A stretch of 38,429 bases of DNA from positions 1-38,429 of the forward strand of contig JAFPLH010000028.1 of NCBI GenBank assembly GCA_017402845.1, in the 5' to 3' direction. The notes under the pieces were generated by a model. That model searched no databases and had not been told where the DNA came from. It saw nothing but the letters and a program-made list of their open reading frames with translations. This document shows positions 23,611 to 26,847 of this stretch, piece after piece. Each line of letters begins with the position of its first letter. Position 1 is the first letter of the stretch. A program made the translations under genes and the position numbers. Source of the stretch: Clostridia bacterium. GTDB taxonomy: Bacteria > Bacillota > Clostridia > Oscillospirales > Acutalibacteraceae.

Positions 23611-25122
23611 TTACGCTTTTATTTTTTCGTATCTTTCGCTCATTGCAACAGACAGCATCATGCTTTCAGGGTTCAGATCATGATTAACTATCATATTGAA
23701 CAGCTTAGGTGATGAACCGCTTACAAGTGCAACTCCCTGCTCATTTTTTGTAACGGGCACTTGATTATTTCTTGCATTTACATTCCAGAAAACGACCTGC
23801 GGCAGCTTATATCCGTTTTCTTCAAACAGTTTTTTTGCATACTCGAAATTTGTTATATCAGCGTCTTCTGTACATCTGTTAAACTCCATATCTGATATAA
23901 TATAAATCGTTGCAGGCAGTTCGTTCTGCGGAACTTTGTTTTCGATCGCCGTATTAAGTATAAGCTCGAACACGGCTTGAATATTTGTATCTGCAACCTC
24001 ATTATAGCTCATACAATAATAGATCTTTTCTGCAATATCGCTGCCCTTTATTTCTACAAGCTGCGGAGTTTCGGAAAAGGTTATGAAGTGGTTATTGAAC
24101 ACGCCCTTATTTCTCTCGGCAAAATACATACCTAATGAAATCGCAACGTCAATAGGAGCAGGAGTTCCGACGTACATAGAGCCGGAGCCGTCAACTACAA
24201 CTAATGCGTTTTCATCATTGGTATAGTCCTCAAGGGCGTTCCACGTTGTATTTAACGCAGCTCTTTCCTCTGCGGTCAATAATGAATCAACTTTTTTCAA
24301 ATCGACCTCATCCGAATACCATTCGTAACCATAGTTCATCTTCAGAATTACGGGGTGCACTATATCGTAGGGCGTCAAAGTGCCTGTATTCATTTTTGCT
24401 TCGCCCTTAGCAACACTATTTAAGAATGTGGTGTATCTTTCGTTGTCATTTCTGATAAATGCTTTTCTGTATTTAAGCATTGCTTTTGAAGGCTGAACGG
24501 AATAATCAAAGGTATAATCGGACTCTCGAAGTCTGTTCTCAATTATATCGGTATATTTACGCAGGGGTGAAAGAGTCTTGCGGTATTCTGCGCTGTTAAA
24601 ACCCAGAGCTTTTGCTATTCTTTTTGCGTCTGCTACTGTTTTTGTGTTTGATGCGTTTACTGAGGGCAACCATTTTGCAAGCAAAGAAACCGGCTCGCCT
24701 TTCTGCATAGCGGCAACATCTTTTTCAAGCTGTGCTTTTATCAAAGAAACTGCATCTTTTTCGCATGGAGTTTCCAACAGTGCGATCAGATCGTCATATC
24801 TGCCGTACTCTGCTATATACCCGATATTCTTTTTTACGGACTCCGGCTTGTATTTTGCAAGCCATTTCAGAATAACTTTGAATATTCTTCTCTCGCCCAT
24901 ACCCTGACGAACATCTCTTGTAAAAAAGAGAAGCTTCATTGCTATGTCGGGGTTTTCGGCATACGCACGCAAGAAAAGTGTAATAATATCGTCGTCTTCT
25001 TCATAACGCTTTCCGCCTATCAGCGCAAAAAAGTCTACGCACTGAGAAAGTGTGCTTCTGAGAGTTACTGCTCCGTTTTCAGTATAGGTTTTGTTTGTTT
25101 CATTCTTTAAATACTCCAACAT
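23611..25122 (-). CDS. DUF2828-type protein: helical N-terminal domain plus vWA, Ro60-like architecture
   Basis: This 503-residue protein has two parts. Residues about 20-290 are helical and carry motifs typical of DUF2828: KLLFFTRDVRQGMGERRIF (63-81), NIGYIAEYGRYDDLIALL (99-116), LLAKWLPSVNASN (147-159), LSPLRKYTDIIENRL (184-198) and the segment around PSKAMLKYRKAF. Residues about 303-480 form a von Willebrand factor A domain with an intact metal site: D311-x-S313-x-S315 (VVVDGSGSM), T379 and D411 (IIISDMEF). A helical ring-like region followed by a metal-binding vWA domain is the Ro60/TROVE layout, and Ro60 binds Y RNAs. AAAGGGAGG lies 8 bases before the ATG. The gene has its own terminator and lies directly downstream of the six-unit array at 25248-25885. 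The RNA-binding role is inference. Confidence 0.8.
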   Translation of the reverse strand: MLEYLKNETNKTYTENGAVTLRSTLSQCVDFFALIGGKRYEEDDDIITLFLRAYAENPDIAMKLLFFTRDVRQGMGERRIFKVILKWLAKYKPESVKKNIGYIAEYGRYDDLIALLETPCEKDAVSLIKAQLEKDVAAMQKGEPVSLLAKWLPSVNASNTKTVADAKRIAKALGFNSAEYRKTLSPLRKYTDIIENRLRESDYTFDYSVQPSKAMLKYRKAFIRNDNERYTTFLNSVAKGEAKMNTGTLTPYDIVHPVILKMNYGYEWYSDEVDLKKVDSLLTAEERAALNTTWNALEDYTNDENALVVVDGSGSMYVGTPAPIDVAISLGMYFAERNKGVFNNHFITFSETPQLVEIKGSDIAEKIYYCMSYNEVADTNIQAVFELILNTAIENKVPQNELPATIYIISDMEFNRCTEDADITNFEYAKKLFEENGYKLPQVVFWNVNARNNQVPVTKNEQGVALVSGSSPKLFNMIVNHDLNPESMMLSVAMSERYEKIKA

Positions 25123-25247
25123 AATAAATGCCTCCCTTTAATAAGTTAATTTGATAATATATAAAAGTGTTGTATACATAAAAAAGGTGTATCTCTTTAA
25201 AATATACGGATTAAAAAAACATTGTTAATTTATTTTATTAAATCATA

Positions 25248-25331
25248 AACCGATAGTAATAAAAAGATACACAGGTGTATATGCAAAAAGACACAAAGGA
25301 AAAAATCTTTTTGCATTGCTGCTGATCGGTT
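25248..25331 (-). ncRNA. Array unit 1 (nearest the gene)
   Basis: Closing stem AACCGAT (25325-25331) / ATCGGTT (25248-25254), 7 pairs, unlike the GGCAC stems of the other units. CAGCA is at 25317-25321, three bases after the stem. Inside are two clear hairpins: ATGCAAAAAGA/TCTTTTTGCAT (25281-25291 with 25306-25316, 11 pairs) and ATACAC/GTGTAT (25267-25280). It is the best-structured unit. It starts 2 bases after unit 2 ends and ends about 125 bases before the protein's ATG. Confidence 0.7.
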
Positions 25332-25333
25332 AC

Positions 25334-25388
25334 AAGGCACAGCCAAAAAAAACAATTCATTCCATAAATAAGCTGCTGTGTGTGCCTT
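25334..25388 (-). ncRNA. Array unit 2
   Basis: Closing stem AAGGCAC (25382-25388) / GTGCCTT (25334-25340). CAGCA is at 25374-25378. This shortest unit (55 bases) has an open AT-rich centre and can extend its stem by pairing CAGC with GCTG. A predicted promoter (25395-25423) would start transcription right at its first bases. Confidence 0.7.
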
Positions 25389-25394
25389 ACTTTC

Positions 25395-25423
25395 ATTAAA
25401 AAGTCCGATTATTCAGTTTTCAA
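25395..25423 (-). promoter_or_regulatory. Putative promoter of array units 2-1 and the vWA gene
   Basis: On the minus strand TTGAAA (25418-25423), 17 bases, then TTTAAT (25395-25400). Six bases follow before AAGGCAC of unit 2, so the transcript would begin at the unit's own 5' end. Confidence 0.5.
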
Positions 25424-25439
25424 GGTTCCATTAAGAAAC

Positions 25440-25510
25440 AAGGCACACTTATACAATGACTCCGTGGAGTTCATTTAACCATAAAATGAAATAACTGCTG
25501 TTCGTGCCTT
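25440..25510 (-). ncRNA. Array unit 3
   Basis: Closing stem AAGGCAC (25504-25510) / GTGCCTT (25440-25446). CAGCA is at 25496-25500. The variable domain holds two hairpins: TCATTT/AAATGA (25471-25489) and ACTCC/GGAGT (25459-25470). Gaps of about 50 and 84 bases separate it from units 2 and 4. Confidence 0.7.
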
Positions 25511-25594
25511 TATATGACAACTCCCGAAAGAGCAAGTCACCTTTACTCGATAAGTATATGCCGACTTTAAGAGCTTTCTTTGATTTTTTATACA

Positions 25595-25651
25595 CGGCAC
25601 TCAAAGAAAGCTTCCATCAACTCCAATAAAAAAGATTTGCTGTTTGTGCCG
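25595..25651 (-). ncRNA. Array unit 4
   Basis: Closing stem CGGCAC (25646-25651) / GTGCCG (25595-25600); the C-G pair replaces the A-T pair of other units. CAGCA is at 25638-25642. A perfect 12-base competing helix, AGCTTTCTTTGA (25572-25583) with TCAAAGAAAGCT (25601-25612), would place the 3' closing strand in a loop. It begins 7 bases after unit 5 ends. Confidence 0.65.
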
Positions 25652-25658
25652 AAAAGTC

Positions 25659-25716
25659 AAGGCTCGTTCAATTTTAACGTGAAAGGTTAAATTTAATACT
25701 TTGCTGCTTGAGCCTT
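25659..25716 (-). ncRNA. Array unit 5
   Basis: Closing stem AAGGCTC (25710-25716) / GAGCCTT (25659-25665): both strands changed relative to GGCAC/GTGCC, keeping the pair. CAGCA is at 25702-25706. The variable domain has one hairpin, AATTTAAC with GTTAAAATT (25670-25693, one bulged base). Beyond it, at 25725-25748, is a GCAGCTC/GAGCTGC hairpin in the spacer to unit 6. Confidence 0.68.
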
Positions 25717-25800
25717 TATATTTGGGCAGCTCAAAAAACAGAGCTGCATAATCTTTTATAACATGCTCCCTTTGATCCAATACATACACCGTCAACTAAC

Positions 25801-25885
25801 AAGGCACTGACAATATATGTATTCTAACGGATCAAAGAGAGAACGTCATCCAATCCTCATCGTAAAGAATCGCTGTATGTGCCTT
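25801..25885 (-). ncRNA. Array unit 6 (promoter-proximal)
   Basis: Closing stem AAGGCAC (25879-25885) / GTGCCTT (25801-25807). The motif is CAGCG (25871-25875), the only departure from CAGCA. A competing helix exists: CTTTGATCC/GGATCAAAG plus AATACATA/TATGTATT places the 3' closing strand in a loop, much as in unit 4. A TATACT box lies 11 bases upstream. Confidence 0.65.
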
Positions 25886-25886
25886 T

Positions 25887-25926
25887 CGTGATTATTAGTA
25901 TACACCATTTTATCCCAATAATCACG
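25887..25926 (-). promoter_or_regulatory. Array promoter region with bracketing inverted repeat
   Basis: Perfect 10-base arms CGTGATTATT (25887-25896) and AATAATCACG (25917-25926) flank a 20-base spacer that holds TATACT (25897-25902, minus strand), a good -10 box. No good -35 lies at 16-18 bases. The arms are centred 30 bases apart, about three helical turns. An operator that shuts the array promoter is the simplest reading; an RNA hairpin is the alternative. Confidence 0.5.
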
Positions 25927-25948
25927 GAAAAAAAGTTGCGAATTCAAA

Positions 25949-26064: not shown

Positions 26065-26847
26065 CTATTTTGCATACTCTGCCCACTCTCCGCACTTCTT
26101 AAAGCCTAAGGTATCGTAAAGAGTGATAGGAGCTTCTCTTTGAAGAAAGATCTTTTTGTTGTCTGTATTATGCTTTTTGAGTATCACTTTCAGTATTTCC
26201 TCTGCCATACCTCTTTTTCTGTAAGGCTTTTCAGTGGCGACACTGCTTATATGCAAAGCCTGATCGGTTTTATAGATCACAAAAGCCGTTGATACGGGCT
26301 CATTTTTCTCATTATAAACAGCATATATTTCTGCGGTATTGTGACGTATCATGTGCGACATACTTAAGAAAAAATCCTCAAAAACAATGCGGTCAAGTCC
26401 GAACACATGGTCAAGGAGCTGATATATTTTCTTTAGCTCTGACATTGAGCTTGATACCAAAGATACTTTATACATACCGCTTTCACAAACAGTATTACCG
26501 CCAAACATCATTATTTCCCCCGATCTTTTATTCATACCAAGAATATCGGGCTGCAAAGCAATACTGTTTCTGCACATTATTTTAGACGGTGACAGCATTT
26601 GAAGAAACTCCGACGCTTCGATAAGATCAAAAGGTTCACCGCAGATTATCATCGTACTTGAATACAAACAAAAGCATGAGTACGACTTATTATTATCATC
26701 TCTCTGTATCCAGAAATCAAGAAAATCATACTTTTTACCGCTGTATGCGCTTCTGAGTGCAAGTATTCTTGTACCAAACGGATCTGATACGCACAATCTT
26801 TTAAGATCAGCGTCAAATTCAGCGGTCATATCGTCTATATTTATCAT
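26065..26847 (-). CDS. GNAT-family N-acetyltransferase
   Basis: This 260-residue protein has its C-terminal third (about residues 170-260) as a GNAT domain. The acetyl-CoA-binding motif A is ISSVATEKPYRKRGMAEEILKVIL near residue 204 (the R-x-x-G/A loop is R-K-R-G-M). The final LYDTLGFKKCGEWAEY is the usual motif B end. The N-terminal 160 residues are a divergent region without a motif I can name. The substrate is unknown. Its ATG overlaps the stop of the M42 peptidase gene by four bases (ATGA), so translation is coupled. It is the last gene of the murD-M42-M42-GNAT operon. Confidence 0.85.
   Translation of the reverse strand: MINIDDMTAEFDADLKRLCVSDPFGTRILALRSAYSGKKYDFLDFWIQRDDNNKSYSCFCLYSSTMIICGEPFDLIEASEFLQMLSPSKIMCRNSIALQPDILGMNKRSGEIMMFGGNTVCESGMYKVSLVSSSMSELKKIYQLLDHVFGLDRIVFEDFFLSMSHMIRHNTAEIYAVYNEKNEPVSTAFVIYKTDQALHISSVATEKPYRKRGMAEEILKVILKKHNTDNKKIFLQREAPITLYDTLGFKKCGEWAEYAK

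Follow-up and report, generated by a model that had tools for sequence, protein, structure and literature searches.

A DUF2828/DUF7788 gene with a Ro60-like product, as judged from the predicted fold, is preceded by an array of six putative small RNA units in a 38,429-nucleotide (nt) stretch of DNA (henceforth the window) from a Clostridia bacterium of the Acutalibacteraceae (assembly GCA_017402845.1, contig JAFPLH010000028.1, positions 1 to 38,429). Across bacteria and phages, all such units share a predicted terminal clamp that is tied to DUF2828 genes. By sequence comparison, many of the interiors held by this clamp are varied versions of tRNA parts, joined in bacteria by versions of 23S rRNA helices, and these interiors change independently of the clamp. 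We consider it probable that the array gives rise to Y-RNA-like ribonucleoproteins (RNPs), in which a Ro-like ring presents tRNA and rRNA mimics as decoys or baits in a conflict over RNA damage.

The window belongs to a 2.1 Mb genome (G000) of a gut or rumen Clostridia relative, whose closest relatives are Ruminococcus and Clostridia metagenome-assembled genomes (MAGs). The initial annotation, which was made from the sequence alone, had placed six units with paired ends upstream of a gene for a vWA-domain protein. We searched positions 25123-25900 mechanically for 6-base-pair (bp) Watson-Crick arms followed after 2-3 nt by CAGC, with the partner arm within 110 nt. This returned exactly six units on the minus strand, which is the strand of the vWA gene, and none on the plus strand. 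The units lie within a few bases of where they had been drawn, with 6-bp core arms at 25249-25330, 25336-25386, 25441-25509, 25595-25651, 25660-25715 and 25802-25884. The mean number of units in 2000 dinucleotide shuffles was 0.03 and the maximum was 2, so that six was never reached. The fixed motif described as internal is real in that CAGC is common to all six units (CAGCA in five, CAGCG in one), but it sits 2-3 nt past the 5′ arm and not in the interior. The closing stems do change on both strands (GGCAC/GTGCC, GGCTC/GAGCC and CCGAT/ATCGG), and in relatives such changes range much wider.

The sister genome G001, whose protein is 84% identical, carries homologous units behind the same promoter, on a separate contig (L198). 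Unit 5 of the window contains an anticodon stem-loop whose loop, CTTTCAC, is the loop of tRNA-Glu(UUC) from the same genome. The matching G001 unit (TTAAC-CTGTCAC-GTTAA) retains the clamp and the hairpin stem but has a different anticodon, its loop being that of tRNA-Asp(GUC). Gene and array in G001 are split over two contigs (L004/L198, that is, C67/C96) that break at the array, which is probably an assembly break at the repeats. No Rfam family matched the window at gathering thresholds, and a permissive scan of the array returned chance-level models only. A tRNA-like match at position 15530 of contig C80 in the window genome was rejected as a mimic, being a tRNA cut by the contig end.

The clustering of units for a single DUF2828 protein, which the initial annotation did not know to be described, is real but not peculiar to this genome; it is typical of the family, and similar units stand beside other DUF2828 genes as anticipated. 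The DUF2828 protein is present in 8 of 22 genomes of the genus, and the relatives with sufficient upstream DNA carry units: L006 has three, and L007-L009 have a single one each. Scanning GTDB genomes, MAG assemblies among them, yielded 80 further loci from Oscillospiraceae, Lachnospiraceae, Synergistaceae, Fretibacterium and MAGs labelled Chloroflexi. Canonical units were found in 78 of these 80 bacterial loci, 289 in total, with 1-10 per locus and a median of 83 nt. Searched alone, the 5′ motif occurred 276 times in the upstream regions and 2 times on the opposite strand. A 7-bp partner within 160 nt accompanies 265 of the 276 occurrences (254 exact and 11 with one G-U pair). When arms were exchanged between units about 25% still paired, a control that is inflated because arms recur among units. 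The consensus over 288 bacterial and 114 phage units is AAG[G/A]C[A/G]C-NNA-CAGCAA ... G[U/C]G[C/U]CUU-G-U, a terminal clamp with a stem of 7-8 bp, then NNA and CAGCAA.

Several loci depart from this layout. Exact matches to the 5′ part of the clamp in genus mates without DUF2828 (L203-L207) were rejected as units; their arms do not pair and we took them as chance. A lone clamp unit lies between two unrelated genes at about 1445-1515 on the minus strand of L200 (G006 contig C49), with the DUF2828 gene on another contig. The loci L011 (-770 to -580 relative to the gene start; GGCACACACAGCAGCGA...) and L012 (-770 to -570; GACGCGTACAGCAGCGA...) have one longer unit each, of about 190-200 nt, embedded in a larger region that looks structured and contains GACAGGAG...CTCCTGTC; the DUF2828 proteins of these loci are paralogues with 44-48% identity. 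Downstream of the DUF2828 locus of a Lachnospiraceae MAG there are CRISPR repeats (CRISPR-DR3; L082:6663-7084, minus strand).

Oscillibacter valericigenes has the system and a complete genome, and we compared the interiors with its tRNAs and rRNAs; the E-values of this mimic search depend on that one genome. Matches to tRNA or rRNA were found for 81 of the 289 bacterial interiors, whereas shuffled controls gave 2-6 and the reverse complement gave 10. There were 68 interiors matching tRNA and 12 matching 23S rRNA, and no 16S rRNA mimics were found among the bacterial interiors. The Rfam tRNA model placed 15 units, in 13 loci, above its gathering threshold. In several of these the clamp replaces the acceptor stem, as in L047 1429-1492 (columns 4-67 of 71). 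For 16 cloverleaf units, RNAalifold recovered the clamp, D-arm, anticodon arm and T-arm. The covariation of a selected RNA structure, which had been proposed for the units, is above shuffled controls in these cloverleaf units, with 31 double-change cells compared with 9.9, a covariation of 0.284 compared with 0.136, and 0 of 500 shuffles as high. All versions of a slid-alignment control were far lower.

A second class of tRNA mimics is permuted, with the anticodon arm or T-arm followed by an acceptor hairpin closed by a short loop and then by the D-arm (L056 and L066 in bacteria; L247, L273, L274 and L281 in phages), and a third group shows little beyond an anticodon stem-loop. Among 75 anticodon-like loops in bacterial units, 33 are identical to real tRNA loops (8.3 expected, maximum 18). 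The 23S rRNA mimics cluster at two sites, nt 1890-1912 in helix 71 (H71) and nt 894-960 in the A-site finger region. Three units that mimic nt 1890-1912 also include the preceding GAAATTCC of helix 70. Some of the 23S mimics are permuted as well: H71 is followed by GCGAAATTC in L022, and L063 has GAATGCCG...CGGAGGTAAAGC.

The element TCGCARCTTTTTTTCCRTG was detected in 40 of 76 loci and never on the opposite strand. Most loci that carry it have their first unit beginning 52-54 nt past the element, about 10 nt past a TAWAAT box, and because of this promoter geometry we infer that transcription starts at the first clamp. The window genome has a single exact copy, CGCAACTTTTTTTCCGTGATT. The initial annotation was silent on this element (25920-25940), on the mimicry and on the genomic partners.

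A scan of viral sequences with the window protein as sole query found nothing, and an alignment query was required. The latter found 115 DUF2828 relatives in IMG/VR. Relatives are present in 667 of 50,697 phage records (a base rate of 1.3%), and the carriers include Felix O1-type coliphages, Listeria P100, Bacillus FADO and cluster L mycobacteriophages in which the protein is annotated as 'Ro-like RNA binding protein'. Upstream of the gene in 58 IMG/VR loci we identified 115 distinct clamp units, with none on the opposite strand. These contain 27 anticodon-like loops, compared with 2.7 in shuffles; 17 of the 27 are real tRNA loops, led by Lys CTTTTAA and including asparagine, arginine and others. 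Units adjoin the gene in phages of Bacillus, Listeria, Mycobacterium, E. coli, Klebsiella and Campylobacter, and lie downstream of it in Lolly9 and tootiki. No convincing units were found near the gene in KVP40, SE_PL and Vibrio phage 1.081.

We also scanned IMG/VR for the RNA first. Two clamp patterns returned 91 and 77 stretches, compared with 2 for a complement-arm control. A DUF2828 gene lies within the stretch in 88 of 162 loci, with 100 units on the same strand and 1 on the opposite strand. Among 40 loci without the gene in the stretch, 30 have it elsewhere in the record. In total, 118 of the 128 viral loci examined are in records that encode DUF2828. That units can lie far from the gene favours RNAs acting in trans.

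A 2025 study of CKA15, a P100-like Listeria phage, suggested nearby abundant RNAs as possible Y RNAs (PMC12282133). The transcripts CKA15_059-061, the most abundant ones of that study (PMC12282133; OR088597.1, about 26388-26698) coincide in position with a ROOL match in P100 (L294:956-1507), which at 86 bits (E = 5.5e-16) is just under the gathering threshold of 99.1. The DUF2828 homologue CKA15_055 was detected in purified CKA15 virions with 57% coverage (PMC12282133), because of which phages may deliver the protein with the particle.

The 503-amino-acid (aa) protein of the window matches Pfam DUF2828 (E = 1.5e-36) and DUF7788 (E = 6e-46) by hmmscan, as well as PHROG 850, an RNA-binding protein family (E = 6e-143). 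The metal ion-dependent adhesion site (MIDAS) residues DGSGSM, T379 and D411 are invariant in nine homologues. We predicted the structure with AlphaFold2 from 9 sequences (mean predicted local distance difference test score, 78.8; predicted template modelling score, 0.66). The top 12 Foldseek matches of this model are all Ro60/Rsr/TROVE structures (9kop, 1.2e-9; 1yvr, 9e-8; 2nvo, 3e-7), as are the top 10 from VIA-align (Z 11.0-13.9 over 307-405 aligned residues), where the first vWA-only match scores 10.7. The root-mean-square deviations from the Ro60/Rsr structures are large (5.5-8.9 Å). The predicted fold matches Ro60/Rsr over the full length, as an alpha-helical ring plus a vWA domain, and agrees with the Ro60-like layout that the initial annotation had recognized. 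Pfam TROVE (PF05731) is absent from the hmmscan matches of the protein and there is no TROVE gene in the whole window genome. A PDB sequence search with the DUF2828 protein gave no match, and PADLOC gave none for DUF2828 or RtcB.

Along the minus strand of the window, a GNAT gene (26065-26847) is followed by the element CGCAACTTTTTTTCCGTGATT, the box TATACT, the six clamp units (25886 to 25247) and the DUF2828/DUF7788 gene (25122 to 23611), as listed in Table 1.

Table 1. Features of the DUF2828 locus, in positions of the window.
Feature	Position	Strand	Basis
DUF2828 + DUF7788 (vWA) protein, Ro60-like by prediction, 503 aa	23611..25122	-	Pfam, alignment, predicted fold, PHROG
Unit 1, last in putative transcript; clamp AACCGAT/ATCGGTT, spacer CAG, CAGCA	25247..25332	-	Sequence search
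Unit 2; clamp AAGGCAC(A)/(T)GTGCCTT, CAGCA	25334..25389	-	Homologue in sister genome
Unit 3; clamp AAGGCAC/GTGCCTT, CAGCA	25440..25511	-	Sequence search
Unit 4; clamp CGGCAC/GTGCCG, CAGCA	25594..25652	-	Sequence search
Unit 5; clamp AAGGCTC/GAGCCTT, CAGCA; anticodon stem-loop TTAAC-CTTTCAC-GTTAA with tRNA-Glu(UUC) loop	25658..25717	-	
Unit 6, first in putative transcript; clamp AAGGCAC/GTGCCTT, CAGCG	25801..25886	-	Homologue in sister genome
-10-like TATACT, about 10 nt before first unit	25897..25902	-	Same placement in relatives
Conserved promoter/operator element CGCAACTTTTTTTCCGTGATT	25920..25940	-	Sole exact copy in window genome

Three neighbour families recur in the bacterial loci: RtcB, in 44 of them (PF01139, E to 2e-60), and two WYL-domain proteins, in 53 and 52. 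Among 57 loci with enough flanking sequence, all three are present in 28, one or two in 13 and none in 16, including the window. RtcR and RtcA are not among the recurrent neighbours, and the two WYL proteins occupy that place. WYL regulators are predicted ligand-sensing defence regulators (PMC4012209). Three genus mates without DUF2828 (L164, L165 and L166, from G018, G011 and G009) have the WYL pair, the promoter element CGCAGCTTTTTTTCCGTGA and an SPFH/Band-7-like protein, and L164 continues with a nucleotidyltransferase-like protein and RtcB (domain names by inspection). These appear to be a sister RNA-repair locus under the same element. RtcB is near the phage DUF2828 gene in only 1 of 80 IMG/VR loci.

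Taken together, the arrays suggest that RNA decoys or baits are deployed in sets, by bacteria and viruses alike, in conflicts where damage to tRNA and ribosomes is at stake. The ring protein would bind the clamp and stabilise each RNA, leaving the interior to stick out as bait. Damage to tRNA or rRNA would induce the RNPs, with the WYL regulators and the shared promoter element mediating the response. The mimics could then compete for (as decoys) or capture (as sensors) enzymes that attack tRNA anticodons, tRNA bodies and the H71 and A-site finger segments of 23S rRNA, and RtcB would reseal the cut RNA. Phages may use such RNPs in the same way, against tRNA-cutting nucleases of the host. New specificity could arise by changing the interior while the clamp is kept, for which unit 5, with a Glu loop in the window and an Asp loop in the sister genome, may be an example. 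We favour the decoy version within this reading because of the variety of anticodon loops, the lost acceptor ends, RtcB and the phage carriage, while judging its chances to be slightly short of even.

Some observations weigh against a display of decoys or baits. A mimic is identifiable in only one of the six window units (unit 5), the other five interiors being AT-rich, and for 138 of the 289 bacterial interiors the set contains no relative. Neither the sarcin-ricin loop nor the decoding site, the main known ribotoxin targets, is mimicked among the bacterial interiors. The loops of cloverleaf units in L033, L034 and L075 match no natural anticodon loop, and therefore not all units can be anticodon decoys. 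The RtcB gene of the window genome shares the contig of the array at a distance of 49 kb, and the WYL pair is on another contig. Finally, the most abundant of the published CKA15 RNAs were rejected as clamp RNAs, as they coincide with the ROOL match.

The main rival to the decoy reading is that the units are adaptors or tethers, as in RYPER: the clamp would hold the ring, the mimic would recruit PNPase, RtcB or a modification enzyme, and the RNP would degrade, repair or modify tRNA and rRNA. H71 lies at a known rRNA modification region, which would fit such a role, as does the presence of RtcB beside most bacterial loci. The architecture and function have been published for YrlA (PMC8394870). 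However, a single adaptor should need one effector module, whereas the modules here are many and diversified and their anticodon loops are interchangeable. Several class III mimics also lack the T-loop U-C used by tRNA modification enzymes. On balance we regard the adaptor as unlikely, if still the strongest competitor of the decoys.

It is markedly less probable that the units are substrates or a memory, that is, captured fragments of damaged tRNA and rRNA that serve as sensors whose cleavage signals damage to the WYL regulators. Cellular tRNA and rRNA are indeed the source of the interiors, cleaved RNA is the substrate of RtcB and the WYL proteins are predicted ligand-sensing defence regulators (PMC4012209), but the interiors are not copied fragments: they mimic or permute the originals, conserving stems whose sequences have changed, and neither an integrase nor a reverse transcriptase is among the commonest recurrent neighbours.

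We give little credence to a cis-acting leader, in which the units would be regulatory hairpins in the 5′ untranslated region of the DUF2828 mRNA, for example autoregulatory protein sites. Most units are directly upstream on the same strand (median 316 nt), and a terminator-like hairpin lies between unit and gene in L007-L009. In Lolly9 and tootiki, however, units follow the gene; others lie kilobases from it or in a different part of the phage record, and one stands alone on another contig (L200). These units in trans already largely refute a leader. In addition, the first unit begins approximately at the predicted transcription start, and a leader has no need for tRNA and rRNA mimics. The idea of selfish or recombination repeats without RNA function (attC-like or REP-like) is scarcely credible: it could account for the tandem layout, paired ends and variable interiors, but it is contradicted by RNA-type covariation that includes cloverleafs and by a strict preference for one strand, 100 to 1 with respect to a single gene, and the arrays have a dedicated promoter and no cassette open reading frames.

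In bacteria, the Y RNAs known so far mostly number one or two per genome, each a tRNA mimic. The Ro-like protein studied here is paired with a set of RNAs that have one handle and exchanged modules, namely anticodon loops, acceptor-less tRNA bodies and 23S segments. Since the modules on display point to the suspected targets, the purpose of tRNA mimicry by Y RNAs can be tested directly, and the system occurs in cultured phages of the laboratory hosts B. subtilis, M. smegmatis and E. coli K-12. It also provides a functional lead for DUF2828, found in >600 phage records, many of them annotated as hypothetical or RNA-binding only. We note that parts of the system may have been noted in earlier literature.

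We compared the system with those already described. It resembles Ro60/Rsr and its Y RNAs (YrlA, RF02553) in having a Ro-fold ring with a vWA domain (predicted here), paired-end RNA with a tRNA-mimic effector module and a gene that adjoins RNA repair genes. It differs in its protein, which is DUF2828/DUF7788 with Pfam TROVE undetected, and in its arrays of up to 10 distinct effectors, which include anticodon loops and 23S mimics. The best scores of the YrlA model are 41.6 bits (L056), 40.1 (KP2025) and 37.7 (Lolly9), all below the gathering threshold of 69. The YrlA effector module, a permuted tRNA (T-arm, acceptor hairpin, D-arm), is recognizable in a subset of units, mostly at model positions 23-87 with E down to 7e-6. 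The window array has no YrlA (RF02553) match, and the effector module was not found in its six units. In the RYPER complex of Deinococcus, YrlA binds Rsr through its basal stem and PNPase through its tRNA-like domain, which DusA and TruB modify (PMC8394870). The YrlA clamp (ggCga-AUGCU ... AAcUuGucGcc) differs from that of the units (RRYRC-NNA-CAGCAA), which are therefore Y-RNA-like but not members of YrlA; the likeness to Y RNAs first proposed for the array holds in the effector module of some units and not in the clamp.

In Salmonella, too, a single locus, the rsr-yrlBA-rtcBA operon, brings together RtcB, a dedicated regulator and a Ro-like protein with Y-RNA-like RNAs, and this operon is induced by tRNA fragments (PMC7790460). 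Its regulator is RtcR, a CARF-sigma54 activator, whereas two WYL regulators and arrays are found here. A further difference is that WYL/SPFH/nucleotidyltransferase/RtcB loci in the genus of the window share the promoter element. Phage ROT/TROVE proteins have been described as RNA-repair platforms with tRNA-like partners (PMC7824862), and no clamp RNA array or mimic of rRNA or anticodons appears in the part of that account considered here. These proteins and the mycobacteriophage 'Ro-like RNA binding protein' belong to the same family as the protein of the window.

Another likeness is to the dictyostelid Class I RNAs (RF01414), which to our knowledge have been reported so far as unique to social amoebae. 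They are 42-65 nt long, with an AAG start, a terminal stem with compensatory changes, a variable interior and a CUGU end (PMC7919456), and the motif CCUUACAGCAA directly follows the 5′ stem (PMC7919456). The RF01414 model gave 22.6 bits on one phage unit (gathering threshold, 41.5) and nothing in the window. A comparison of L296:4114-4167 with the RF01414 consensus placed ACAGCAA at the same spacing from the stem. Class I RNAs are eukaryotic single genes whose known partner is the RRM protein Rnp1A, and in this they differ from the clamp units. Judged by the consensus of the 288 bacterial and 114 phage units against the published description (PMC7919456) and the RF01414 consensus, the two layouts appear strikingly similar, with the AAG start, the stem, C-NNA-CAGCAA at the same spacing and the CUU-GU/CUGU end in common. 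A general modular platform, in which one Ro-like protein reads one clamp joined to an evolvable library of tRNA and rRNA mimics, and which bacteria and hundreds of phages would deploy as decoys against RNA-targeting nucleases, with the Class I RNAs as its eukaryotic RNP branch, is conceivable on these grounds, although we would not expect it to hold in full.

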